DNA of 64,000 nucleotides. Origin: Castellaniella sp. MT123 (GTDB lineage Bacteria; Pseudomonadota; Gammaproteobacteria; Burkholderiales; Burkholderiaceae_B). The notes under the pieces are model-generated. The model saw only the letters and a program-made list of their open reading frames with translations. It ran no database searches and was not told where the DNA came from. Below, in pieces: positions 507 to 14,302 of this stretch. A program made the position numbers and the translations under genes. The DNA is taken from assembly GCF_039614765.1 (NCBI RefSeq), contig NZ_CP154879.1, positions 1,364,001-1,428,000 on the forward strand, read 5' to 3'. Numbering within the stretch: the first letter of the stretch is position 1; the number at the start of each line of letters is the position of its first letter.

Positions 507-553
507 ACACTATATATTGTGTTTAATATTCACGAATACACAATATATAGAGG
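507..553. promoter_or_regulatory. Two tandem NrdR boxes
   Basis: Box 1 (507-522) is ACACTATATATTGTGT and box 2 (538-553) is ACACAATATATAGAGG; both fit the NrdR consensus acaCwAtATaTwGwgt. Their starts are 31 bp apart, three helical turns, the spacing known for cooperative NrdR repression of ribonucleotide reductase operons. Box 2 runs into the nrdD ribosome-binding site. The inner halves also form a perfect 13-bp inverted repeat (510-522 with 538-550). Confidence 0.88.
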
Positions 554-561
554 AATTCCGG

Positions 562-2346
562 ATGACTTCCATCCAGCCCCAGAGCCCGGCCGAGCGCCCC
601 ATTCCCCACGTGGACGTCATCCGTTCCATCGACGAATACCTGCGCCAGCAGGACTGGCGCGTGAACGCCAACGCCAACCAGGGGTACTCGCTGGGCGGGC
701 TGATCCTGAACACCTCGGGCAAGATGATCGCCAATTACTGGCTCAGTCACGTCTACCCGGAAACCGTCGGCCAGGCTCACCGCCAGGGCGACCTGCACAT
801 CCACGACCTGGACATGCTGTCGGGCTACTGCGCCGGCTGGTCGCTGCGCACGCTGCTCAACGAAGGCCTGAACGGCGTGCCCGGCAAAGTCGAATCCGCC
901 GCGCCGCGCCACATGTCCAGCGCGGTCGGCCAGATCGTCAATTTCCTGGGCACGCTGCAGAACGAATGGGCCGGCGCCCAGGCCTTCAGTTCCTTCGACA
1001 CCTACATGGCGCCCTTTATCCGCAAGGACGCCATGACGTACGACCAGGTGCGCCAGTGCATCCAGGAACTGATCTACAACCTGAACGTCCCCTCCCGCTG
1101 GGGAACGCAGACGCCGTTCACCAACCTGACCTTCGACTGGGTCTGCCCGGAAGACCTGCGCGAGCAGGTGCCCGTGATCGGTGGCGAAGAAATGCCCTTC
1201 GCCTACGGCGATCTGCAGGCCGAGATGGACATGATCAATCAGGCCTACATCGAGGTCATGATGGCGGGCGATGCGCACGGACGGGCTTTCACCTTCCCCA
1301 TCCCGACCTACAACATCACGCCGGACTTCGACTGGCACAGCCCCAACGCCGAACGGCTGTTCGAGATGACGGCGAAATACGGCCTGCCCTACTTCCAGAA
1401 CTTCATCAATTCGGAACTGAAGCCCAACATGATCCGGTCCATGTGCTGCCGCCTGCAGCTGGATCTGCGCGAACTGCTCAAGCGCGGCAACGGCCTGTTC
1501 GGCTCGGCCGAGCAGACCGGATCCCTGGGTGTGGTCACCATCAACTGCGCCCGCCTGGGCTACCTGCACCCGAACGACGAACCCGGTCTGCTCGCCAGGC
1601 TGGACGAACTGCTGGCCCTGGGGCGCGACAGTCTGGAAATCAAACGCCGGGTCATCCAGCAGCACATGGACGACGGCCTGTTCCCCTATACCCGCCGCTA
1701 CCTGGGGACCCTGCGCAACCATTTTTCCACGCTGGGGGTCAACGGCGTCAATGAAATGATCCGCAACTTCACCGGCGACGAACATGATCTGACCACCCCC
1801 TGGGGCCATGCCTTCGCCGTGCGCCTGCTGGACCATGTCCGCGCCCGCATGATCGAATTCCAGGAAGCCACCGGCCACCTATACAACCTGGAAGCCACCC
1901 CGGCCGAAGGCACGACCTATCGCTTCGCCAAGGAAGACCGTGCCCGCTGGCCGGATATCCTGCAGGCGGGCACGCCCGACATGCCCTACTACACCAATTC
2001 GTCGCAGTTGCCGGTGGGATTCACCGACGACCCCTTCGAGGCCCTGGAACGCCAGGATGAGCTGCAACGCAAGTACACCGGCGGTACGGTACTGCATCTG
2101 TATATGACCGAACCGCTGTCGTCGGCCGAGGCCTGCCGCACCCTGGTGCGCCGCACGCTCAGCCGCTTCTCGCTGCCCTACATCACGATCACGCCGACCT
2201 TTTCCATCTGCCCGAAGCACGGCTACCTGCCGGGCCGGCACGACTTCTGCCCGACCTGCGACGATGAACTGCTGGCACGCAAACGGGTCACTGCCTCGAC
2301 AGCCGCCCCGGTCACCGAGGGCATCGCGGCCGCCAGCCCGGCCTGA
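562..2346 (+). CDS. nrdD: Anaerobic ribonucleoside-triphosphate reductase, catalytic body without the glycyl-radical domain
   Basis: Class III ribonucleotide reductase large subunit, which reduces ribonucleotides to deoxyribonucleotides without oxygen. The ATG at 562 follows AGGA and is preferred over an in-frame ATG at 517 that lies inside the NrdR region. The 594-residue protein has the SMCCRLQLD segment with the expected thiyl-radical cysteine, and near the C-terminus a zinc motif, CPKHGY followed by CPTC. Family members normally continue directly into a glycyl-radical domain with the motif RV-x-GYxRP. Here the reading frame stops about 30 residues after the zinc motif and the radical domain is encoded by the next gene (2426-2608). 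Preceded by FNR and NrdR boxes. Confidence 0.93.
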   Translation: MTSIQPQSPAERPIPHVDVIRSIDEYLRQQDWRVNANANQGYSLGGLILNTSGKMIANYWLSHVYPETVGQAHRQGDLHIHDLDMLSGYCAGWSLRTLLNEGLNGVPGKVESAAPRHMSSAVGQIVNFLGTLQNEWAGAQAFSSFDTYMAPFIRKDAMTYDQVRQCIQELIYNLNVPSRWGTQTPFTNLTFDWVCPEDLREQVPVIGGEEMPFAYGDLQAEMDMINQAYIEVMMAGDAHGRAFTFPIPTYNITPDFDWHSPNAERLFEMTAKYGLPYFQNFINSELKPNMIRSMCCRLQLDLRELLKRGNGLFGSAEQTGSLGVVTINCARLGYLHPNDEPGLLARLDELLALGRDSLEIKRRVIQQHMDDGLFPYTRRYLGTLRNHFSTLGVNGVNEMIRNFTGDEHDLTTPWGHAFAVRLLDHVRARMIEFQEATGHLYNLEATPAEGTTYRFAKEDRARWPDILQAGTPDMPYYTNSSQLPVGFTDDPFEALERQDELQRKYTGGTVLHLYMTEPLSSAEACRTLVRRTLSRFSLPYITITPTFSICPKHGYLPGRHDFCPTCDDELLARKRVTASTAAPVTEGIAAASPA

Positions 2347-2371
2347 GCGCCGGCCCACCCTTTTCACCCGT

Positions 2372-2398
2372 CCGGGCCTGCCGGGCCCGGCATTTTTT
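2372..2398 (+). terminator. Stem-loop with T-run between nrdD body and radical-domain gene
   Basis: CCGGGCC (2372-2378) pairs perfectly with GGCCCGG (2384-2390) around a 5-nt loop and is followed by CA and six T (2393-2398). It looks like an intrinsic terminator, yet it sits 27 bp before the start of the radical-domain gene that nrdD should need. It may be a partial terminator or a processing/stability element setting subunit ratio. Confidence 0.6.
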
Positions 2399-2425
2399 CA
2401 CTCACCATCCTTTCAGGAGCACATC

Positions 2426-2608
2426 ATGACCCACACCCCCATCACACTGAACGACGCCGAACGCCAGCCCTGCGAGATCTGGACCCGCGTCATGGGCTAC
2501 CACCGGCCCATGTCGTCCTTCAATATCGGCAAGAAGGGCGAATTTCACGAGCGCCGCTTCTTCGTCGAACGGCGCACGGGGCAAGCCCCGGCTCGACACG
2601 CCGCATAA
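2426..2608 (+). CDS. Stand-alone glycyl-radical domain of anaerobic ribonucleotide reductase
   Basis: Sixty residues, starting at an ATG 7 nt after an AGGAG ribosome-binding site. The segment WTRVMGYHRP contains the glycyl-radical motif that in one-piece NrdD proteins lies at the extreme C-terminus, and the following FNIGKKGEFHERRFF matches the family end. Gly24 of this peptide is the expected radical site that NrdG would activate. The product probably docks into the NrdD body as a separate radical subunit, much as the small protein YfiD (GrcA) replaces a damaged radical domain in pyruvate formate-lyase. The gene is too well formed (own start, own RBS, 79-bp spacer) to be a frameshift artefact. 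Confidence 0.88.
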   Translation: MTHTPITLNDAERQPCEIWTRVMGYHRPMSSFNIGKKGEFHERRFFVERRTGQAPARHAA

Positions 2609-2701: not shown

Positions 2702-3415
2702 ATGCCAACCACCACACGCATCAAGATCGGCGGCCTGGTGCCCTTCACCGCCACCGACTATCCCGGCCTGCTGGCCGCCGTCATCTTCGTCCAGGGCTGC
2801 CCCTGGCGCTGCGGCTATTGCCACAACCCGCACTTGCAGCCCCGCACCGCCGACAGCCCGCTCGACTGGAATGGCGTCCTGGCCTTCCTGCGGCGCCGGG
2901 TCGGCCTGATCGACGGTGTCGTCTTCAGCGGCGGCGAGCCCACTATGGATCCCGGCCTGGGCGCCGCGATCGACCAGGTCAGGGCCCTGGGTTACCGCAT
3001 TGGCCTGCACACGGGCGGGACCCACCCGCGCCGGCTCGCACAGGTGTTGCCCGCTGTGGACTGGGTGGGTCTGGACATCAAAGCCAGCTTTGAGGACTAC
3101 GAACGGATCACTGGGGTGACCCGCAGCGGCGAACCCGCGCGCGACAGTTTGCGGGCCGTGCTGGACAGCGGAGTGGATTTCGAATGCCGCACAACGGCGC
3201 ACCCCGATCTGATCAGCCAGGACGGCTTGCTGGCGCTGGGCCAGACACTGGCGCAATACGGGGTGCGCCGCTACGCAGTGCAGGTATTCCGGCCCCAAGG
3301 CTGCGCCGACGAGGCTCTGAACGCACATGGCCAGTCCTTGCGGGACTGGCCATGTGCGGCGGTCAGCGACGCACTGGCGGCGCTGTTTCCGTCATTCGAG
3401 CTGCGGCGCGGGTAG
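2702..3415 (+). CDS. nrdG: Anaerobic ribonucleotide reductase activating enzyme, radical SAM
   Basis: Radical S-adenosylmethionine enzyme that installs the glycyl radical on NrdD. It carries the CxxxCxxC cluster motif as CPWRCGYC near residue 33, then FSGGEP (SAM binding). At 237 residues it belongs to the longer NrdG2-type activases rather than the roughly 154-residue E. coli NrdG. The ATG at 2702 begins the conserved part but has no clear ribosome-binding site; a GTG at 2675 with GACGAGG upstream is a plausible alternative that adds nine residues. It follows the two nrdD pieces and completes the class III system. Confidence 0.9.
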   Translation: MPTTTRIKIGGLVPFTATDYPGLLAAVIFVQGCPWRCGYCHNPHLQPRTADSPLDWNGVLAFLRRRVGLIDGVVFSGGEPTMDPGLGAAIDQVRALGYRIGLHTGGTHPRRLAQVLPAVDWVGLDIKASFEDYERITGVTRSGEPARDSLRAVLDSGVDFECRTTAHPDLISQDGLLALGQTLAQYGVRRYAVQVFRPQGCADEALNAHGQSLRDWPCAAVSDALAALFPSFELRRG

Positions 3416-3465: not shown

Positions 3466-4059
3466 TCAGCTCTCCATCGCATCGAGCAGCATGCGCACGG
3501 CGTAATCGGCGAAGCTGCGCCGCACGATCAGTTCCCAGGCATCGCCATCTTCCCCCAGCGGGTACAGCAGTACGCTGGTCTTGAAGAAATGCGACTGGGC
3601 ACACCGGCCGAACGGCAAGGCACGGGGGTGCAGATCCAGCGGACAGCCCGCGTTCAGCACATTGCGTACCCCCGGTCCATGCAGCTGGACGACGGAATAG
3701 CCACTGCTCTGGTCCGTGACCGCGAACCAATGGCCCGCCAGCGCGTGTTCGGCCCGGGATGCCAGATCGTCCCCGCTGCCGGCCCCGGTGCGCACCAGCC
3801 ACTCGTCGGGTGCCAGCCACAAGACCGTGATATCGCCATGACGGGTCACCGTATTGGGCACCAGGGGCAGTTCCAGCCCCAGACACGCCTGGACGGCCCC
3901 CAGGGCGGCGGGATCGGATGGGTCCACACGCAGATTGGCCAGGCTGACCAGAGGCTGCTCGCTCAAGGACACCCGATCAGGGGCGCCATGCAACAGGGGC
4001 AGGCCAAAGTCCACATGCAGTCCCGTCAGCGGGCTCTGCTGTTTGTTTTCAGTCAACAT
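3466..4059 (-). CDS. soxG: Sarcosine oxidase gamma subunit
   Basis: Last gene of a soxB-soxD-soxA-soxG operon on the minus strand. The start MLTENKQQSPL at 4059 overlaps the 3' end of soxA by 11 bp, indicating translational coupling; a longer in-frame extension upstream would lie entirely inside soxA and is rejected. The 197-residue product matches the small gamma subunit of heterotetrameric sarcosine oxidase, with an ITVLWLAPDEWLV segment related to the folate-binding aminomethyltransferase fold. The enzyme oxidatively demethylates sarcosine to glycine, passing the methyl carbon to tetrahydrofolate. Confidence 0.93.
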   Translation of the reverse strand: MLTENKQQSPLTGLHVDFGLPLLHGAPDRVSLSEQPLVSLANLRVDPSDPAALGAVQACLGLELPLVPNTVTRHGDITVLWLAPDEWLVRTGAGSGDDLASRAEHALAGHWFAVTDQSSGYSVVQLHGPGVRNVLNAGCPLDLHPRALPFGRCAQSHFFKTSVLLYPLGEDGDAWELIVRRSFADYAVRMLLDAMES

Positions 4060-7048
4060 TTTGACGGGCTCCTTCGGGATCGTAGAACACCGGACTGCAG
4101 ACGCGTGCCGGCATGAATCGGCCATCGGCCGTGGCCACCGTGACTTCATGGCCCATCTGTGCTTGGCCGTCCTTGAGCATGGCAAGCGCAATCGACCGTC
4201 CCAGGATCGGGCTCATGTAGCTGGAGGTCACATGGCCGAACATCGGGGCGATGGTCGCCTGGGTCGGGCCCTGCAGGATCTGGCCGCCTTCAGGCAGCAC
4301 GCAGGCGGGGTCCTTGGCCAGCAGGCCGACAAACTGCTTGCGCCCGGGACCACTGGTATGACTGCGCGACAGCGAACGCTTACCCAGGCAATCCTTGGTC
4401 TTGGCCAGCATGCCGCCCATGCCCAGATCCATCGGGGTGACCGACCCGTCCGTATCCTGGCCGACGATGATGTAACCCTTTTCACCGCGCAGCACGTGCA
4501 TGGTCTCGGTGCCGTAGGGCGTGATGCCGTAGGGCTGGCCAGCTTTCATCAACCGCTCGACGATATGGCGGCCCATGTTGGCCGGCATATAGATTTCGTA
4601 GGACAGCTCGCCGGAAAAGCTCACCCGCAGGACGCGCGCGAACACCCCATCGATGGTGCCTTCCTGGAAACTCATGAAAGGAAAGGCTTCATTGCTGAAA
4701 TCGATGTCCTTGCAGACGGCGGTCAGGACCTTGCGCGCGTGGGGGCCCGCAACGGTCGCCACCGCATACTGGTCGGTCACCGACGTCAGATAGACCCGCA
4801 GATCCGGCCATTCGGTCTGCAGCCAGCGCTCCATCCAGCTCATGATGCGGGCGGCGCCACTGGTGGTGGTGGTCAGCAGAAAATGGTCCTCGGCCAGGCG
4901 AATGCTCACGCCGTCGTCCATGACCATGCCGTTTTCATCCAGCAGCAAGCCATAACGGCAGCGCCCAGGCTGCAGCTTGGTCCAGGAATTGATGTACAGG
5001 CGATTGAGGAACTCGACCGCATCCGGGCCGCGCACATCGATCTTGCCCAGGGTGCTGTAATCCAGGATGCCGACGCTGTTGCGCACGGCCAGGCATTCGC
5101 GCCGCACCGCCGCGTGCATGTCCTCGCCCGGTTTCGGATAGTAGTGGGCGCGCTTCCAGTTGCCCACATCCTCGAAGATGGCGCCTTGTTCCAGATTCCA
5201 GTCGTGCAGGCAGGTGCGGCGGATCGGATCGAACCAGTCGCCCAGTTCCCGCCCCGCCATGGCGCCGAAGCTGACCGGCGTGTAGTTGGGACGGAATGTC
5301 GTGGTCCCGGTTGCCGGAATGCTTTGCTTCAAGGCTTCAGCCAGCACCCCCATGCCGTTGATGTTGCCCAGCTTGCCCTGATCGGTGCCAAAACCCATGG
5401 CGGTATAGCGCTTGACGTGCTCGACCGAGTGGTAGCCCTCGCTGACCGCCAGCAGGATGTCGGAGACGGAGACATCGTTCTGGTAATCGATGAACTGCTT
5501 CGAACCCCGCGTGGCATCCTTGCCTTTGCCAACCGACCACAGCGGCAGCAGCGGCGTGACCTCGACGGAATGGGTGGACCAGTCGGGAAGATCGGCCGGA
5601 CGCGTCGGCGCGGCGCCCTGCACCGCCCGCAGGCCGGCTTGCACGCCACCCACCAGGGCGGCTTGCAAGCTGAAGTCGCCGTTGGCGGCACCCGCGCTGC
5701 TTTGCGGCTGAGCCGCCGCATCCGGCACGAAGCAGGCCCGTTCCTCGCACCAGCGCGGTTTGCCACGCGACTGGGCGTACAGGTGGATCACAGGATTCCA
5801 GCCGCCGGACATGACCAGCAGATCGCAGGCCAACGCATCGATGCCGTCGCGCAAGCTGGCGCCGTGGCCCCGCAGGCGCACACCGGTCACATGCTTGCCG
5901 CCGCGTGCCTCGGCCACCACCGTCTGATGGATGACCCGGACCCCCAGGCGCTCGGCCTCTGTCGGCAGGGTCCCGTGGCTGAGCACGCGCGGATCGACGA
6001 CGGTGACATCGGCGCCATGGCGCTTCAGGTCGATCGCTGTCTGGTAGGCACTGTCGTTGTTGGTGAACACGACCGCGCGGCGGCCGGGCAACACACCATA
6101 GCGGTGGATATAAGCGGAGACGGCACCCGCCAGCATCACGCCCGGAATATCGTTGTTGCCGAATACCAGCGGCCGTTCATGGGCGCCAGTCGCCAGCACC
6201 ACGTGCCGCGCGCGGATCTTCCAGATGCGTTCGCGCACGCCGCTTCGCTGCATGATCGGCAGATGGTCGTGCAGCCGCTCGCAGGCGGTAACCAGATTGT
6301 GATCCTGGTAGCCAAAGGCGGTAGTGCGCTGCAGCACCTGTGTTTCCGGCTGGGCGGCCAATTCCGCCATGCGTTCGGCGACCCAATCCAGCGCGGGTTT
6401 GTCGTCGATGACTTCCTGGGCGCGCAACAGGCTGCCCCCCGCCTCGCCACCATCGTCCACCAGAATGACCCGGGCACCGGTGCGGCCTGCCGCGCAGGCA
6501 GCCGCCAGCCCCGCCGGCCCCGCCCCCACCACCAGCACATCGCAGTGCGCATAGCGTTTCTCGTAGCGATCGGGATCCTGGGTGTCGGGCACCGAGCCCA
6601 GACCCGCGGCGTCACGGATCCGTTCCTCGTATTTGCCCCACCAGCTGCGCGGCCACATGAAGGTCTTGTAATAGAACCCCGCCGGGATGAAGCGCGCAAA
6701 GCGCTGCATGATCGCCATGCGGTCATGCTCGATGTCCGGCTTGGCATTGACGCTGGTCGCGCGCAAGCCTTCATAGAGTTCGACCTCGGTCGCACGCGCG
6801 TTGGGCACCGTATACGCGCCGCTTTCCAGCTGCACCAGCGCATTGGGCTCTTCGACCCCGGCGGTCATGATGCCGCGCGGGCGGTGGTACTTGAAACTGC
6901 GCGCCACGAAATGCACGCCATTGGCCAGCAGGGCCGACGCCAGCGTGTCTCCTTGCAGGCCGGTATAGGCCTTGCCATTGAACGTGAAGTGCACGGGCGC
7001 GCCGCGCCGTACACGCCCGCCCTGGGGCAAACGACTATCCTGATTCAT
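4049..7048 (-). CDS. soxA: Sarcosine oxidase alpha subunit
   Basis: 999 residues, the normal length for the alpha subunit. Domains in order: an N-terminal ferredoxin-like domain (PVHFTFNGKAYTG, about residues 18-100), a dinucleotide-binding oxidoreductase domain with VVGAGPAGLAAACAAG near residue 172, and a C-terminal aminomethyltransferase-like (GCV_T) domain that binds tetrahydrofolate and captures the C1 unit as 5,10-methylene-THF. The start overlaps soxD by 4 bp (7045-7048) and the end overlaps soxG. The antisense strand carries a 1075-codon open frame that is a shadow of this GC-rich gene. Confidence 0.96.
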   Translation of the reverse strand: MNQDSRLPQGGRVRRGAPVHFTFNGKAYTGLQGDTLASALLANGVHFVARSFKYHRPRGIMTAGVEEPNALVQLESGAYTVPNARATEVELYEGLRATSVNAKPDIEHDRMAIMQRFARFIPAGFYYKTFMWPRSWWGKYEERIRDAAGLGSVPDTQDPDRYEKRYAHCDVLVVGAGPAGLAAACAAGRTGARVILVDDGGEAGGSLLRAQEVIDDKPALDWVAERMAELAAQPETQVLQRTTAFGYQDHNLVTACERLHDHLPIMQRSGVRERIWKIRARHVVLATGAHERPLVFGNNDIPGVMLAGAVSAYIHRYGVLPGRRAVVFTNNDSAYQTAIDLKRHGADVTVVDPRVLSHGTLPTEAERLGVRVIHQTVVAEARGGKHVTGVRLRGHGASLRDGIDALACDLLVMSGGWNPVIHLYAQSRGKPRWCEERACFVPDAAAQPQSSAGAANGDFSLQAALVGGVQAGLRAVQGAAPTRPADLPDWSTHSVEVTPLLPLWSVGKGKDATRGSKQFIDYQNDVSVSDILLAVSEGYHSVEHVKRYTAMGFGTDQGKLGNINGMGVLAEALKQSIPATGTTTFRPNYTPVSFGAMAGRELGDWFDPIRRTCLHDWNLEQGAIFEDVGNWKRAHYYPKPGEDMHAAVRRECLAVRNSVGILDYSTLGKIDVRGPDAVEFLNRLYINSWTKLQPGRCRYGLLLDENGMVMDDGVSIRLAEDHFLLTTTTSGAARIMSWMERWLQTEWPDLRVYLTSVTDQYAVATVAGPHARKVLTAVCKDIDFSNEAFPFMSFQEGTIDGVFARVLRVSFSGELSYEIYMPANMGRHIVERLMKAGQPYGITPYGTETMHVLRGEKGYIIVGQDTDGSVTPMDLGMGGMLAKTKDCLGKRSLSRSHTSGPGRKQFVGLLAKDPACVLPEGGQILQGPTQATIAPMFGHVTSSYMSPILGRSIALAMLKDGQAQMGHEVTVATADGRFMPARVCSPVFYDPEGARQNVD

Positions 7049-7344
7049 ACGGCCTCCCGGATCGGTTCGGCGGTTTCGTGACTCTGACCATCGAAGGTCT
7101 CGTAGCCCTGGATGTCATAGGTCCGCGTATCGCGTTCAGCCATGAACCAGCGGCGGCAACCCTGGGCATGAACCCACTGCTCGCGAAACAGCCCGAACGT
7201 ATTGCGGCGCATGAACACGTAATCACCCCATTCGCGATCATCCATCGAGGCGTTGTCCACGGGACGCACGATCCCGGCTTCCCCGCCATAGCTGAATTCG
7301 CTTTCGGCGCGATCCCCGCACCACGGGCATTTGATCTGCAACAT
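7045..7344 (-). CDS. soxD: Sarcosine oxidase delta subunit
   Basis: Ninety-nine residues starting MLQIKCPWCG. The CPWCG motif and the downstream HAQGC supply the Cys3His zinc site of the SoxD family. It lies 10 bp downstream of soxB and overlaps soxA by 4 bp, the canonical soxBDAG order. The delta subunit is structural and stabilises the heterotetramer. Confidence 0.95.
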   Translation of the reverse strand: MLQIKCPWCGDRAESEFSYGGEAGIVRPVDNASMDDREWGDYVFMRRNTFGLFREQWVHAQGCRRWFMAERDTRTYDIQGYETFDGQSHETAEPIREAV

Positions 7345-7354
7345 GATGTCTCCT

Positions 7355-8602
7355 TCAGTGGGCCACGGCGGCTGCGCCGTGCTCGTCGATCAGATGGCCG
7401 CTATAGAAGCGGTCGACGGAGAAGGCCTTGTTCAGTGGATGCGGCTCGTCGTGCGCAACCGTGTGCGCAAAGACCCAGCCCGAGCCCGGCGTGGCCTTGA
7501 ACCCCCCGGTTCCCCACCCGCAATTGAAATACAGCCCCTTGATCCCGGTCTTGGTGATGATCGGGCACGCATCAGGCGACACGTCCACGATGCCCCCCCA
7601 TTGACGGTTCATGCGCACGCGGCTCAGGGACGGGAACATCTCGACGATGGCCTGCAGCGTGTGTTCGATGCTCTGGAAGCTGCCACGCTGGCCGTAACCC
7701 AGGTACTGGTCGATGCCGGCGCCGATCACCAGGTCGCCCTTGTCGGACTGGCTGATGTAGGCGTGCACGGCATTGGACATGATGACGGTATGGACGCAGG
7801 GCTTGACCGGCTCGGAAACCAGCGCCTGCAAAGGATGGCTCTCGATGGGCAGACGCACGCCGGCCATCTCGGCCAGCACGCTGGAATGCCCCGCCACCAC
7901 GACGGCGACTTTCTTGGCCTTGATGAAGCCTTTGCCCGTCTCCACGCCTTCGACCACGCCGTCTTTCTTCCGGATATTGAGGACCGGACAATTCTGGATG
8001 ATATGCACCCCAAGCCGGTCCGCCGCGCGGGCAAAGCCCCAAGCCACGGCATCGTGGCGGGCCACGCCGCCGCGCCGCTGGAACGAACCGCCCAGCACGG
8101 GATAGCGGCTGTTCAGATTGATGTTGGGCACGATCTCCTGGACCTGCGCCGGCGTCAGCCATTCACCATCGACCCCGTTGTAGCGGTTGGCATTGATGCG
8201 CCGCTGGGTGTCGCGCACTTCCTGCAGATTGTGAGCCAGGTTCATGACGCCGCGCTGGCTGAACATGACGTTGTAGTTCAGGTCCTGCGACAGGCCTTCC
8301 CAAAGCTGCATCGCCTTTTCATAAAGCTGGGCCGATTCATCCCAGAGATAGTTCGAGCGGACGATGGTGGTGTTGCGCGCGGTGTTCCCACCGCCCAGCC
8401 AGCCTTTTTCCAGCACGGCCACATTGTGGATGCCATGCACTTTGGCCAGATAGTAGGCGGTGGCCAGGCCGTGTCCGCCCGCGCCGATCACGACGACATC
8501 GTATTCCCGCTTGGGTTCGGGGCTATGCCACGCCCTTCCCCAGTTTTCATTGTGGCTCAGCCCGTTGCGAATCAGGCTGAAGATCGAGTAGCGATTACTC
8601 AT
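7355..8602 (-). CDS. soxB: Sarcosine oxidase beta subunit, FAD/FMN
   Basis: 415 residues from ATG at 8602, which has GGAG upstream; an in-frame ATG nine codons earlier lacks context. The Rossmann motif [19 protein letters not shown] lies at about residues 36-54. This subunit oxidises sarcosine with non-covalent FAD and covalent FMN and delivers product to the alpha subunit. It is the first gene of the sox operon; the 126-bp upstream region holds a 7-bp inverted repeat and the upstream neighbour is an AraC-type regulator in the same orientation. Confidence 0.95.
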
Positions 8603-8626
8603 GGTCTCCTCGCTTGTATGATGGCG

Positions 8627-8650
8627 CACCCATGTTTGGCGTCATGGGTG
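8627..8650. promoter_or_regulatory. Inverted repeat in the sox operon promoter region
   Basis: CACCCAT (8627-8633) and ATGGGTG (8644-8650) form a perfect 7-bp inverted repeat with 10 bp between, 25-48 bp upstream of the soxB start. It is a candidate operator or 5'-UTR hairpin for the sarcosine oxidase operon. Confidence 0.4.
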
Positions 8651-9918: not shown

Positions 9919-10806
9919 ATGCAGCACCCATCATCGCCCATCCCACCCGCCGCCAGCGCACTGTTCTGCCTGACGGTGTCCTGCCCCAGCAAGGCCGGCC
10001 AAGTCGCAGCCATCGTCTCGTTCCTGGACCAGCGACAAGGCTACATCGACGAATTCACCGTCTTCGACGAAAAAAGCACGCAGCAATTCTTTGTGCGCTG
10101 CGTCTTCCACACCGATGGCCCCCAAGCGCTGGACATCGCCTCCCTGAACCGCGATTTCACCGAATTGGCCCAGCGTTTTTCCATGCGCTGGACCATCCAC
10201 GACATGGCGCGCCGCCCCAGGGTACTGATTCTGGTGTCGAAGCTGGAACACTGCCTGGCGGACCTGCTGTTTCGCACCCGGATGGGCGAACTGCCGATGG
10301 ACATCGCGGCCATCGCGTCGAATCACGACACCCTGCGCAGCCATGCCGAGGCCGCCGGCATCGCATTCCACCATCTGCCCGTCACCGACGACACCCGGCC
10401 GCAACAGGAAGCCGCCATCCTGGATCTGGCGCGCACGACCGGTTCCGAACTGGTCGTTCTGGCCCGATACATGCAAATCCTGCGTCCCGAAACCAGCAAA
10501 GCGCTGGCGGGCCGCGCCATCAACATCCATCATTCCTTCCTGCCGGGCTTCAAGGGCGCCCGCCCTTACCATCAGGCTTACGAACGCGGCGTCAAGGTGA
10601 TCGGCGCCACGGCCCACTTCGTGACCGACGATCTGGATGAAGGCCCGATCATCACCCAGTCCGTCGAACCGGTCGATCATGCGCAAACCCCCGATCAGTT
10701 GCTGGCCACCGGCCGCAACCTGGAATGCCGCGCGTTGGCCCAGGCTGTGCGCGACTATCTGGAACGGCGGGTCTTCATCAGCGGGCATCGGACAGTGGTG
10801 CTGTAA
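9919..10806 (+). CDS. purU: Formyltetrahydrofolate deformylase
   Basis: Hydrolyses 10-formyl-THF to formate and free THF. The 295 residues comprise an N-terminal ACT domain (ALFCLTVSCPSKAGQVAAIV, residues 13-90) and a C-terminal formyltransferase-fold catalytic domain with NIHHSFLPGFKGARPY and GATAHFV, which carry the expected Asn, His and later Asp catalytic residues. PurU commonly accompanies sarcosine or glycine betaine demethylation genes, where it recycles THF loaded with methyl-derived C1 units. A degraded copy of its last 27 codons is found at 17698-17779. Confidence 0.95.
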   Translation: MQHPSSPIPPAASALFCLTVSCPSKAGQVAAIVSFLDQRQGYIDEFTVFDEKSTQQFFVRCVFHTDGPQALDIASLNRDFTELAQRFSMRWTIHDMARRPRVLILVSKLEHCLADLLFRTRMGELPMDIAAIASNHDTLRSHAEAAGIAFHHLPVTDDTRPQQEAAILDLARTTGSELVVLARYMQILRPETSKALAGRAINIHHSFLPGFKGARPYHQAYERGVKVIGATAHFVTDDLDEGPIITQSVEPVDHAQTPDQLLATGRNLECRALAQAVRDYLERRVFISGHRTVVL

Positions 10807-10825
10807 AGCGATCCCGATCCGCATC

Positions 10826-10849
10826 GGGCGGCGCTCGCGGGCGCCGCCC
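10826..10849. terminator. GC-rich hairpin between convergent purU and creatininase
   Basis: GGGCGGCGC (10826-10834) and GCGCCGCCC (10841-10849) form a perfect 9-bp stem with a 6-nt loop in the 65-bp gap between convergent genes. There is no T-run, so it may be a Rho-assisted bidirectional terminator or an mRNA end stabiliser. Confidence 0.45.
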
Positions 10850-10871
10850 GGGTTCCGGACGCGGCGGCAAC

Positions 10872-11639
10872 TCAGTCGAACGCGGTCCGCAACGCGTCTG
10901 TGATGCCTTGTACGCAGACCGTCAAGATCAACTGGCCGTGTTCCGCGCTGGCCCGGCTGGCCGACGACAGGCAACCCGACTCCGGGGTCCATTCCGGCTT
11001 GATCGGGAAAAAGTCGTAGGGCGGGAACGTCGCCGGCGGATGATCCCGCACCTGACTCATGTCGACCAGATGCGGATGCAGATGCAGCATCAGGGACGTT
11101 TCCAGCACCCCGCCATGCTCGACGGCCCAACCCGGAAAATCCCCCTGGTAGATCGCATCGATCGTCGTCTGGTCGATAAAGTCCCAGTAGGACAGAATGA
11201 TGCTGCGGAAATCCCGGATGCCGTCCCAACGCAGTTCACGCAGTGCCAAGTCGACGCCCTCGGTGATGAACGCGGAGTTCTCGTAATGACCATTGACCAG
11301 GACGACCTTACGGACCCCGTGGCGCGCCAGTTCCTTCAGCACATCACGGATGATGCTGGTGACGGTCAGCCCATCCAGACTGGTCGTCCCCGGCATGTGA
11401 TTGCCACCGCCGCTTTTTTGCTGCGACTTGTAGCCGTAGGCGATGGCCGGCGCCACCAGCGCCCCCATGTGCGCCGCCACGCGCTCCGAGATGGCGGTCG
11501 GCAGCAGGACATCCGGATTCATGCTCATGTGGGGGCCATGCTGCTCCAGCGCGCCGACGGGTATCAGCACGACAGCCCCAGCTTTGACTTTTTCCGCGTA
11601 GGCTGGCCAGGCCAGCTCCGCAATACGAACGTGATTCAT
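10872..11639 (-). CDS. Creatininase (creatinine amidohydrolase)
   Basis: Interconverts creatinine and creatine (EC 3.5.2.10). The 255 residues contain LEQHGPHMSMNPDV, supplying Glu32, His34 and Asp43, and NGHYEN with His118 and Glu120; these match the metal ligands of Pseudomonas putida creatininase with an offset of two. GGGNHMPGTTSLDG and EHGGVLETSLML are also family hallmarks. It starts 3 bp after the NCS1 permease gene, so the two form an operon. With creatinase at 25889 and sarcosine oxidase at 3466 it gives a complete creatinine-to-glycine route. Confidence 0.93.
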   Translation of the reverse strand: MNHVRIAELAWPAYAEKVKAGAVVLIPVGALEQHGPHMSMNPDVLLPTAISERVAAHMGALVAPAIAYGYKSQQKSGGGNHMPGTTSLDGLTVTSIIRDVLKELARHGVRKVVLVNGHYENSAFITEGVDLALRELRWDGIRDFRSIILSYWDFIDQTTIDAIYQGDFPGWAVEHGGVLETSLMLHLHPHLVDMSQVRDHPPATFPPYDFFPIKPEWTPESGCLSSASRASAEHGQLILTVCVQGITDALRTAFD

Positions 11640-11642
11640 GTT

Positions 11643-13022
11643 CTACCTCTTGAAGGCCAGACGCGTGCGTCCCATGTTGAAACCCAACGTCAGGACCAGA
11701 TAGCTGACCGCCGTCACGCCGATCGTCGGGAAGGATGCTGTCCAGATCGCCGCGGCGTCTGTCAGGCCGTAATGCAGCAGGTAGAACGCGCCCAACCCCA
11801 GCGCCATCGAAACCCAGCCGGAAACGTTCCAGTCACCCAGCCGGCTCTTGGTGGAACCATCGGGATAATTCCCGGCAAACAGGTCCTCATCCCGAACCTG
11901 GCATCTGCGCACGATGAAATAGTCGACAACCACCAGCGTCCACAACGGAATGAAGACTCCGCCGACGATGCCGAGAAAAAACTCGAAATACTCGATGAAC
12001 TTGTCAAAGGCCAGCGGCAGGAAGCACATGACAAACTGCAGGACCGCGATAAACAGCAGGTAGCGCTTGGGCGATTCGCTGCGCGTGGCACCCACCAATC
12101 CCATGCCGGCCCCATACAACACGGTCACGTTGGTGCTGACAGTGGCGAAAAACACCACCAGAAAGGCAACGGTACCCAGCCCCAGGGAAGCAATGGTGGA
12201 ACTGGGATCCGAGTTGTTCGGATCGAAGACGCCGGTGTCCAGGACGACGCCGATCACACCGATGGCACCGACGATCATGAACCAGCCTTGGCCCAGATTG
12301 ACCCCCAGCCAGCTGCCCGCTGTGGCGGCACCCGGCCCCTTGGCAAAACGGGCAAAGTCGCCGATCATCGCCCAGCCCCAGCAGAACCCGAAAGCCAGAT
12401 CGAAATAAAACGCCGGCGTATGCTGAGCCTCCGGCAAAGTCAGGCTGGCAATTTTGGCGTAGTCCCAGTGCTGCAGGACGACGATGGTTTCCCAGACACC
12501 CAGGACGACCAGCAGGACGACCGAGATCCATTCCAGATACTTGATGGCCTGATGTCCCACGACGACGATCACGCCCTGAACGACCGCGGTCACCAGGATG
12601 CCCAGAATCAACGGCATCATGGAACCGGGCTGCCCATACGTCGGCCAATCCCACATGGCATGGAAGACGTAGGTCAGTGAAATAGCCGCGATGAAAGTAT
12701 TGATGCTGGGCCAGCCGATCATGCCCAGAAATTCCCCGATGCCGGCCCAGCGCGAACCCTGGACGCCCAAAGCGGGAACCGTGCAGGTCACCGTCGATGC
12801 GCCATGTTTCCAGGAAATCCAGCCGATCATGGCCCAGGGAATCATCATCAGCGGCAAATAAATGAAGGCATATTGCCAGACGAAACTCATGCCGATGGCC
12901 GCCGCCATTCCGCCGAAATACCAGGATCCGGTGTTGACCCCGGACCCGAACCAGGTCACGACCTGGTCAAAAAAGCCATACTCGCGCTTGTCATGCGGAA
13001 TTCTGGCGGTGCCGTATTCCAT
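11643..13022 (-). CDS. NCS1-family permease, likely creatinine/creatine uptake
   Basis: A 459-residue polytopic membrane protein with about 12 predicted membrane segments and the NCS1 (cytosine/purine/allantoin permease, CodB-like) pattern: FFDQVVTWFGSGVNTGSWYFG near the N-terminus and GWAMIGDFARFAKG in the middle. NCS1 carriers import nucleobases, hydantoins and related cyclic ureides by cation symport. Because it is the first gene of a two-gene operon with creatininase and is preceded by a regulatory block shared with creatinase, creatinine is the most likely substrate; this is inferred from context only. Confidence 0.88.
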   Translation of the reverse strand: MEYGTARIPHDKREYGFFDQVVTWFGSGVNTGSWYFGGMAAAIGMSFVWQYAFIYLPLMMIPWAMIGWISWKHGASTVTCTVPALGVQGSRWAGIGEFLGMIGWPSINTFIAAISLTYVFHAMWDWPTYGQPGSMMPLILGILVTAVVQGVIVVVGHQAIKYLEWISVVLLVVLGVWETIVVLQHWDYAKIASLTLPEAQHTPAFYFDLAFGFCWGWAMIGDFARFAKGPGAATAGSWLGVNLGQGWFMIVGAIGVIGVVLDTGVFDPNNSDPSSTIASLGLGTVAFLVVFFATVSTNVTVLYGAGMGLVGATRSESPKRYLLFIAVLQFVMCFLPLAFDKFIEYFEFFLGIVGGVFIPLWTLVVVDYFIVRRCQVRDEDLFAGNYPDGSTKSRLGDWNVSGWVSMALGLGAFYLLHYGLTDAAAIWTASFPTIGVTAVSYLVLTLGFNMGRTRLAFKR

Positions 13023-13120
13023 GTAGTGTCTCCTCGAAGGTGCGCCGGCCCCCCGTTATGTCCCGGGAGTGTACCGGCTCTGGTGATTGAGCGGCGGCGT
13101 TTTTTCCGCATCCGCCCAAT

Positions 13121-13185
13121 CCATCTTAGAGACAGGAAGCCTGGCGGCTTTTTTCAGAAACGACCTTTACTTGCCAGAAAGCGAA
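13121..13185 (-). promoter_or_regulatory. Shared creatine-regulon promoter/operator block, copy 1
   Basis: This 65-bp block upstream of the NCS1 permease-creatininase operon closely matches 27209-27273 upstream of creatinase. CCATCTTAGAGAC is identical, followed by 14 unrelated bases of equal length, then a 38-bp part with 33 matches including CTTTTTTCAGAA and CGACCTTTA. Read toward the gene on the minus strand, TAAGAT (13123-13128) resembles a -10 element, with the conserved 38 bp around and upstream of -35, the arrangement expected for an AraC-type activator site. Confidence 0.75.
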
Positions 13186-13210
13186 ACCATGCCTAAAGCC
13201 GCACGCGCGC

Positions 13211-14302
13211 TCAGGCCCGGGAACCCAGAATGCGGGTCTCCTGCACATCCCAGCTGACATGAACCCAGCCATCGTCCTCCACCGGCAATCTCGCGCGCCC
13301 GGCATAGGGGACCTGCGCCTGCAATTCCAGGCCGGTTTCCGTTTGAAGATGGATCGTCATGATGGCACCGACGAATTCTTCTCCGATCACGCGACACCGC
13401 AAACGATTCTGGCCTGCACCGCCCGGCCCGGCGAAGCGCATGTCCTCGGCACCGACATACAAGGTGACCGGATCCCCTTTGGCAACACGCCCGCCAGCCG
13501 CCACAGGCGTTTCCAGGACCCCATGATCAGATCGGACAATGATTTTGTCACCGGCGATATCGGCCACCTTGCCTTCGATGATGTTCTTGCCGCCAATGAA
13601 TTCCGCCACAAACCGGTTGCATGGCATGGAATAGATTTCCTGGGGGGTACCCACCTGTTCGATATGGCCCTGGCTCATGATCACCACCCGATCGGCCATC
13701 GCGAAGGCTTCGGAATGACTATGGGTGACATACACGAAGGTGATGCCGATCTCCTTTTGCAGCTCGGTCAGTACGCCTTGCATGCGCACCTTCAGGTTTG
13801 CATCCAGAGCGCTCAGCGGCTCGTCGAGCAACAGGATGGGGGGCTCGGTCACCAGGGATCTGGCCAGCGCAACCCGCTGGCGCTGGCCGCCCGACAACTG
13901 ACTGATATCCCGATTCGCAAACTCGGCGAGCCCCATGCGATCCAGCCATTTCCCGGCCCGGCGCCTGCGCTCGGCCTTCTGGACGCCGCGCATCCGAAGA
14001 CCGAATTCAACATTCTCGGTGACGCTCAGAAAGGGGAATAGCGCGAGGTTCTGCCACACCAGGGGCGTGTCGCGATCCCAGGTACTGAGCTCGTTGATGC
14101 GTTCTCCGTTGAGGCGAATTTCGCCTTGCGTGGGCTGATCCAGACCGGCCAGCATCCGCAGGGTCGTTGTCTTGCCGCAGCCGCTCGAGCCCATGATTGC
14201 CAGGAATTCGCCTTCACTGATGTTCAGGTTGATCGATTCGACGGCGGTAAAGCCCCCAAATGACTTGCTGACATTATCCAGTTCCACCAAAGGACGATTC
14301 AT
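13211..14302 (-). CDS. ABC importer ATPase, PotA-like (cluster 1)
   Basis: 363 residues from ATG at 14302; open frame further upstream lies in the permease gene and is rejected. Walker A is GSSGCGKTTT, the signature is LSGGQRQRVALARSL and Walker B is ILLLDEP, followed by a C-terminal TOBE-like regulatory region. It energises the importer encoded by the three genes upstream (binding protein, two permeases), 4 bp after the last permease. The family transports spermidine/putrescine, iron or related cations and amines; the substrate here is unknown, though the position suggests a methylamine or guanidino compound. Confidence 0.92.
   Translation of the reverse strand: MNRPLVELDNVSKSFGGFTAVESINLNISEGEFLAIMGSSGCGKTTTLRMLAGLDQPTQGEIRLNGERINELSTWDRDTPLVWQNLALFPFLSVTENVEFGLRMRGVQKAERRRRAGKWLDRMGLAEFANRDISQLSGGQRQRVALARSLVTEPPILLLDEPLSALDANLKVRMQGVLTELQKEIGITFVYVTHSHSEAFAMADRVVIMSQGHIEQVGTPQEIYSMPCNRFVAEFIGGKNIIEGKVADIAGDKIIVRSDHGVLETPVAAGGRVAKGDPVTLYVGAEDMRFAGPGGAGQNRLRCRVIGEEFVGAIMTIHLQTETGLELQAQVPYAGRARLPVEDDGWVHVSWDVQETRILGSRA

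Follow-up and report, generated by a model that had tools for sequence, protein, structure and literature searches.

Class III ribonucleotide reductases that have been characterised, as the accessible parts of the literature describe them, carry their oxygen-sensitive glycyl radical on the catalytic chain, so that cleavage by oxygen destroys the enzyme. For pyruvate formate-lyase, small glycyl-radical chains made as separate proteins serve as spare parts: YfiD (GrcA) and the phage-borne Y06I of T4. In the portions of PMC8683613 available to us these two are the only validated examples, and others for further enzymes are considered possible. Division of a reductase into two chains by conserved fission is known from NrdJa/NrdJb of Pseudomonas aeruginosa (PMC4520616, PMC9669993, PMC3267527, PMC4009431). 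That enzyme, as far as the accessible text of these papers goes, is class II and B12-dependent, and the part split off holds zinc-finger and IscU-like domains and no radical. Reductase genes in pieces also occur in phages (nrdD or nrdA of Aeh1, phiAS4 and T4). According to the available sections of PMC3653736, most of these breaks are ascribed to introns, inteins and homing endonucleases, the one in phiAS4 is unexplained, and none isolates the radical domain. In the open-access literature that we searched, neither an NrdD radical chain made as a separate protein nor stand-alone NrdD-type radical chains on phages are described, although the split may have been noticed earlier. The NrdDG genes of Cupriavidus metallidurans are given as Rmet_5137 and Rmet_5139 in the part of PMC2864759 that could be consulted, with the intervening number skipped.

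The window, the whole stretch of 64,000 nucleotides from Castellaniella sp. MT123 that was analysed, contains a class III system in which the radical loop lies on a chain of its own (Table 1). The body, the zinc ribbon, the loop and the NrdG partner are those of fused NrdD (PF13597; Thermotoga maritima 4COI, P. copri 8P23, phage T4 1H78). Both an NRDD catalytic domain and an adjoining NrdG activase are present, and the R-x-x-G-Y loop, found on the second chain and not at the C-terminus of the body, is there in the system as a whole. The body has a single Pfam match (PF13597 NRDD, positions 2-540 of 562, E 9e-172) and aligns with NCBIfam NF006126 over positions 98-660 of 684 (1045 bits, cut-off 548). 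It lacks the N-terminal region of this model, which we take to be the ATP-cone, and overall activity regulation has possibly been lost in its group. Open frames of about 680 aa are found in many relatives of the body. The small gene starts 79 nt from the stop codon of the body (TGA, 2344-2346), in another frame, and matches positions 530-562 of PF13597 (E 4e-7; 29.4 bits, cut-off 26.2). NRDD is its sole Pfam family at E up to 1, with no pyruvate formate-lyase-type radical family among the matches. RefSeq already labels the peptide "nrdD". The pattern that we presume to represent the NrdR box and its consensus matches twice in the 64 kb, where 0.04 matches are expected. Downstream genes on the minus strand (3466-8629) resemble a sarcosine oxidase cluster, as read from the list of open reading frames.

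Table 1. Features of the split nrdD locus, in positions of the window.
Feature	Position	Strand	Remarks
NrdR-box-like sites (two), upstream of the operon	507-522; 538-553		First site exact, second with 2 mismatches to ACACNATATATNGTGT
NrdD body, 594 aa	562-2346	+	Barrel, SMCCR, zinc motif CPKH...CPTC; lacks the radical glycine and the presumed ATP-cone region
Cys-Cys of the SMCCR motif, body residues 295-296	1444-1449	+	Invariant in 36/36 aligned NrdD; candidate thiyl-radical cysteines
Body zinc ribbon C550-H553-C563-C566	2209-2259	+	Invariant in 36/36; predicted to bind zinc
Terminator-like hairpin in the gap between body and small gene	2372-2390	+	8 pairs, then CATTTTTT; a consensus match only
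Separate glycyl-radical chain, 60 aa	2426-2608	+	ATG start, upstream Shine-Dalgarno-like CAGGAG
Cys16 of the small chain	2471-2473	+	Present in 81/81 operon copies; 93% among the 93 stand-alone rows
Gly24 of the small chain (WTRVMGYHRP)	2495-2497	+	Predicted radical glycine
NrdG2 activase (radical SAM)	2702-3415	+	TIGR02495, E 3.9e-58

The first-pass annotation, made from the letters of the sequence, had proposed that the nrdD body ends after its zinc motif and that the motif WTRVMGYHRP is encoded by a gene with its own start and ribosome-binding site. Both proposals hold. Its further description of a separate radical domain stands for the loop and the C-terminal arm, which are on the small gene; the zinc part remains on the body. 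Its reading of the radical carrier as an exchangeable subunit finds partial support: the chain is separate, and it may be exchanged or used for repair. The mobile stand-alone copies described below, with no body or activase close by, take this idea further, as they are arranged like T4 Y06I and YfiD. A second complete nrdD elsewhere in the genome had been named as a finding that would overturn the interpretation. This is excluded for the assembly (one contig, 99.99% complete), since a search of the whole Castellaniella genome gave one body and one small radical domain, with no second NRDD match and no fused copy anywhere; two further matches were both to the barrel of a class I/II reductase.

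Alignment with fused NrdD, another check suggested at the outset, agrees with the split. Body and peptide together correspond end to end to the complete protein in 18 fused NrdD from viral contigs, where only about 5 residues separate the last zinc cysteine from the radical loop. The cut falls in this hinge, so nothing of the radical domain has been lost. The radical-domain residues E, R, G, Y, R, P, N, G, K, E and R are invariant in all 36 aligned rows. In the body, the cysteines of SMCCR are the candidate thiyl-radical residues by analogy with T. maritima NrdD, whose SCCR cysteine mutants are inactive (PMC4493059, from the part available). The conserved Cys16 before the loop sets the small chain apart from nearly all of these fused NrdD. 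The idea that it is a fourth zinc ligand was dropped: 17 of the 18 fused proteins (all except L299) have the C-H-C-C of the body without such a cysteine, and it is missing from 7% of the stand-alone rows.

Structure prediction is consistent with this anatomy. With body and small chain joined by an artificial linker, introduced for modelling only, AlphaFold gave a mean pLDDT of 82.8 and a pTM of 0.83; the linker and the fused homologues in the alignment favour docking in this model, which because of those homologues tests compatibility and not binding. Radical-chain residues 621-670 have pLDDT values of 77-95 (in blocks of ten), and the linker falls below 50. A first model from a shallow alignment (pLDDT 66.8) was not used. 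The best Foldseek matches of the linked model are class III reductases, with TMq values of 0.71 against P. copri 8p2s_B and 0.60 against 8p2s_A; target lengths and the accessible part of PMC11226230 indicate that 8p2s_B is probably the chain with an ordered radical domain.

The split is real and common. A scan of the genome collection confirmed at least 585 relatives, and the best 80 of these, mostly from Betaproteobacteria with some from gamma- and alphaproteobacteria, are all split as in the window; as they are the closest relatives, their selection favours sameness. In these 81 loci the gap between body and small gene has a median of 24 nt (range -14 to 376), nrdG lies within 400 nt in 79, and the small chain always contains Cys-Glu-[Val/Ile]-Trp-Thr/Ser-Arg. 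Surveys of broader draws, which the first-pass annotation had called for in Burkholderiales, extend the picture. In the order-wide draw a body was detected in 124 of 399 genomes; by our own tally 99 of these have a separate chain and 12 are single-chain relatives, in another 12 the sole NrdD is of a more distant type, and one has a body fragment without the domain. In the family draw (268 genomes), at least 114 have a match and at least 101 have two or more among the matches listed, a few of the multiple matches stemming from contig breaks. The phylum draw gave matches in 58 of 398 genomes, many of them single-chain. Across the order and outside it, the radical chain is conserved as a separate protein that has translation signals of its own. 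The split is also found on plasmids of Cupriavidus necator H16 (pHG1), Bradyrhizobium and Sulfuricurvum, in two of which RefSeq labels the peptide "nrdD". Body and small chain can be well separated, by 9 kb in G579 and 2.3 kb in G1104 and on different contigs in G1096; the small chain adjoins nrdG in all three.

A tree of the bodies (57 rows, radical columns removed, midpoint root where long branches meet) places the split deep within the family. All 41 split rows and 9 fused ones form a clade of 50 (SH-aLRT 98) nested within fused NrdD; outside it are five fused viral proteins, one from a GenBank phage, a sixth fused viral protein and Geoalkalibacter. L309 was removed because of its insertion, and L277, L411, L412, L417, L418 and L419, most of them more distant fused NrdD, gave no usable row. 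The tree has 6 changes in total, 5 of them forced by well-supported branches. This fits one old split followed by about five re-fusions, the direction being our reading. The fused rows within the clade (G035/G037, Acidiphilium, Actinomyces oris, four genomes of one family, and G645) have linkers that vary in length and sequence, and 8 of the 9 retain the derived CE[VI]WTRVMGY signature, so that they look like re-fusions. Such lineages suggest that separation of the chains is not needed, and their recurrence appears to speak against exchangeability as an essential trait. For the radical chains, a tree of 187 rows and 44 columns has 19 label changes of which supported branches force only 1; it is poorly resolved, and capture events therefore cannot be counted from it.

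Radical chains without a body are carried by many viruses. A peptide search of viral contigs identified 96 relatives; in 79 of the best 80 the locus sequence contains neither a body nor nrdG, and of 40 of these records that were scanned in full, 39 have no other NRDD match, although viral loci are often fragments and some more distant bodies could be missed. A second search, with an alignment as query, identified 306; 80 loci were read, many on contigs shared with the first scan. The search motif occurs in 72 of them and a one- or two-letter variant in the other 8; among the 72, one has a body and none has nrdG. Genes near the viral copies encode portal, neck, head protease, integrase, tail fibre, DNA polymerase and thymidylate synthase proteins. 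Viral contigs with a split-type body are rare (4 loci in a narrow scan with the body alignment). The viral contig of L155 is 100% identical over 6,536 bp to G1349, a genome with a split operon, and this provides one phage with a known split-nrdD host. Two Allochromatium plasmids also have a radical-chain gene without adjoining nrdG, and the one scanned in full has no body.

Among 50,697 phage records the window peptide had no match at E 0.01. With two viral variants of the peptide, the only matches there were proteins annotated as NrdD, a fused NrdD from an unannotated record and a stand-alone protein of an archaeal virus. The last is a protein of 144 aa encoded by ANMV-1 (L234, 3186-3620), with CxxC pairs of its own followed by the radical loop, and is annotated as an anaerobic reductase. 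Stand-alone copies on mobile elements are hidden behind the labels 'unknown function' in PHROGs (phrog_4132) and 'nrdD' in RefSeq.

Extra stand-alone copies are also found in cellular genomes: G1116, G1141, G1270, G1280 (two) and G1349 from the order draw and G958 from the class draw. Each of the six genomes also encodes, at another place, a split body together with the small chain that belongs to it, and within the stretches read no body or nrdG flanks the extra copies. In five of the six nrdG adjoins the body; in G1116 it is not within the sequence read. Among the 399 order-draw genomes, no stand-alone copy was seen in one that lacks a body. The sole genome there with the domain and no body is G1185, where the domain is beside nrdG on a short contig. 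Random placement over the 399 genomes would put five of five in body-bearing ones with a probability of 0.003, a generous figure because G1270 and G1349 share a genus. The 268 genomes of the family draw had no clear extra copy among the matches listed, and of 30 class-draw loci that were read only L239 (G958) lacks the body, L265 being just a 30-residue match. Three further loci were left out of the count: L388 (G1203), which retains a fragment of nrdG, looks like a second operon in decay, L397 (G1373) is at a contig start, and L399 (G1185) is the peptide-nrdG pair.

In G958 the copy has RecT in its vicinity, as well as a class I/II-family ribonucleotide reductase of 952 aa; one G1280 copy adjoins a phage tail gene, and the G1116 copy adjoins a gene with DUF3363 and a weak relaxase match. 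Stand-alone genes in prophage lysis regions, next to endolysin and Rz-like spanin genes, are located at about 5085-5238 in L387, 2412-2618 in L391 and 5057-5278 in L396. L266 includes a prophage-like region (8306-8491 and 10718-13573) in which a stand-alone class III radical chain accompanies RecT and a class I/II-type ribonucleotide reductase of 952 aa; the genome also has a full split nrdD operon.

Comparison of 93 stand-alone rows (83 viral, 10 from genomes or plasmids) with 94 operon rows shows E, R, G, Y, R, P, N, G, K, E and R kept alike in both. N, G, K, E and R are each present in 100% of the stand-alone rows; these five and the leading E lie outside the extraction motif, though the scan patterns covered some of them. 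Without correction, pN/pS comes to 0.20 in the stand-alone set (38 independent pairs, in which L388 (G1203), one of the 93 rows, may be included) and to 0.15 in the operon set (46 pairs). As 58% and 43% of synonymous sites differ, respectively, the true ratios are lower. Judged by these substitution patterns, the stand-alone copies are under purifying selection.

The explanation that we favour, at a probability of roughly 70%, is a two-chain class III ribonucleotide reductase with its radical chain acting in trans, whose mobile copies are spare parts resembling YfiD and Y06I. The large chain would provide the barrel, the cysteines and the zinc ribbon, and the 60-residue chain only the radical loop and the C-terminal arm. 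Since the body lacks a radical glycine and the genome lacks a fused copy, association in trans is the natural reading. The small chain would dock into the barrel without a covalent link, NrdG2 would abstract a hydrogen from Gly24 of this chain, and the radical so formed, predicted to reside on the small chain, would move to a body cysteine in turnover. The arrangement presumably originated long ago, when a fused NrdD was divided at the hinge that joins its zinc ribbon to its radical loop, and most sampled descendants have retained it. A radical chain that acts in trans makes copies of that chain alone useful. Most likely, phages, prophages and plasmids give fresh radical chains to the reductase of the host; the chain may be exchanged after oxygen damage, and a phage may gain from carrying one. 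That mobile radical tips replenish an oxygen-damaged host reductase and so sustain dNTP synthesis during infection is a tentative proposal by analogy, to which we give somewhat less than even odds. Points that weigh against the favoured explanation are the re-fused lineages, the lack of a match to the window peptide among the phage records, and the family draw with no clear extra copy among its listed matches. The likeness to YfiD and Y06I has limits. The radical chain here is of the NrdD family, and the operon copy, as the enzyme's only radical chain, does not replace a fused one. A gene apart from the enzyme body, as for YfiD, is found for the mobile copies and not for the operon copy of the window.

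If mobile tips do replenish the host enzyme, repair by spare parts would no longer be confined to pyruvate formate-lyase but would include a second glycyl-radical enzyme, one with mobile copies in the hundreds. The vulnerable part of the reductase is here a possibly disposable chain of 60 residues. The locus would offer a natural system for docking and activation of a radical domain in trans. Spare parts for other glycyl-radical enzymes, a question open in the accessible text of PMC8683613, would become directly testable, and the mobile stand-alone copies would point to a phage strategy for securing dNTPs in hosts that live near the limit of oxygen.

The strongest alternative is a neutral fission in which the two chains are bound tightly for life, the radical chain is never exchanged and the split has no function. 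The repeated re-fusions agree with it, as does the retention of small chain and nrdG in one operon in nearly all of the 81 loci. It fits less well with a split retained throughout a large clade, and with the uptake of the lone radical chain by many mobile elements that keep it under selection; we consider it unlikely. More doubtful still is the possibility that the mobile chains are inhibitors or decoys occupying the host body or NrdG, or have a role in lysis, and do not serve dNTP supply. The copies in G1141, G1270 and G1349 do adjoin prophage endolysin and Rz-like spanin genes (the spanin matches being weak in two of the three), and an endolysin-like gene is within 2.5 kb in 13 of 80 viral loci. 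Against such a role, the radical glycine is kept together with the invariant N, G, K, E and R, and other copies are near DNA polymerase, thymidylate synthase, or RecT and another ribonucleotide reductase.

Production of a fused protein by frameshift or stop read-through can be rejected as very improbable. In the window the reading frame of the small gene extends without a stop into the body, as it does in 49 of the 81 loci, but it is closed in the other 32, and the small gene is in the frame of the body in 24, about as expected by chance. The stops vary (TGA 13, TAA 4, TAG 2 among 19 checked). The small gene starts with ATG in 80 of 81 loci, and 80 of 81 have a Shine-Dalgarno-like run, a generous figure because the best-scoring start was chosen. 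The starts, the chance-level framing and the varied stops all argue against a hidden fusion. A sequencing error, artefact or pseudogene is refuted by the related loci, all 80 of which share the split, and by the pN/pS of the operon copies, and its likelihood is negligible.

Some viral proteins of this family have additional parts. In L158, L187, L200, L215 and L226 the radical chain has a Cys-rich N-terminal extension of about 40 residues, possibly a zinc module. The viral nrdD frames of L275/L152, L277, L305-L307, L301 and L304 carry in-frame insertions that are one to several hundred residues long and may be inteins. In the translations of L235 (1533-3941), L294, L301 and L304, NrdD is followed by an apparent C-terminal redoxin domain with a CPNCK motif, and it looks as if these viral enzymes bring their own reductant.
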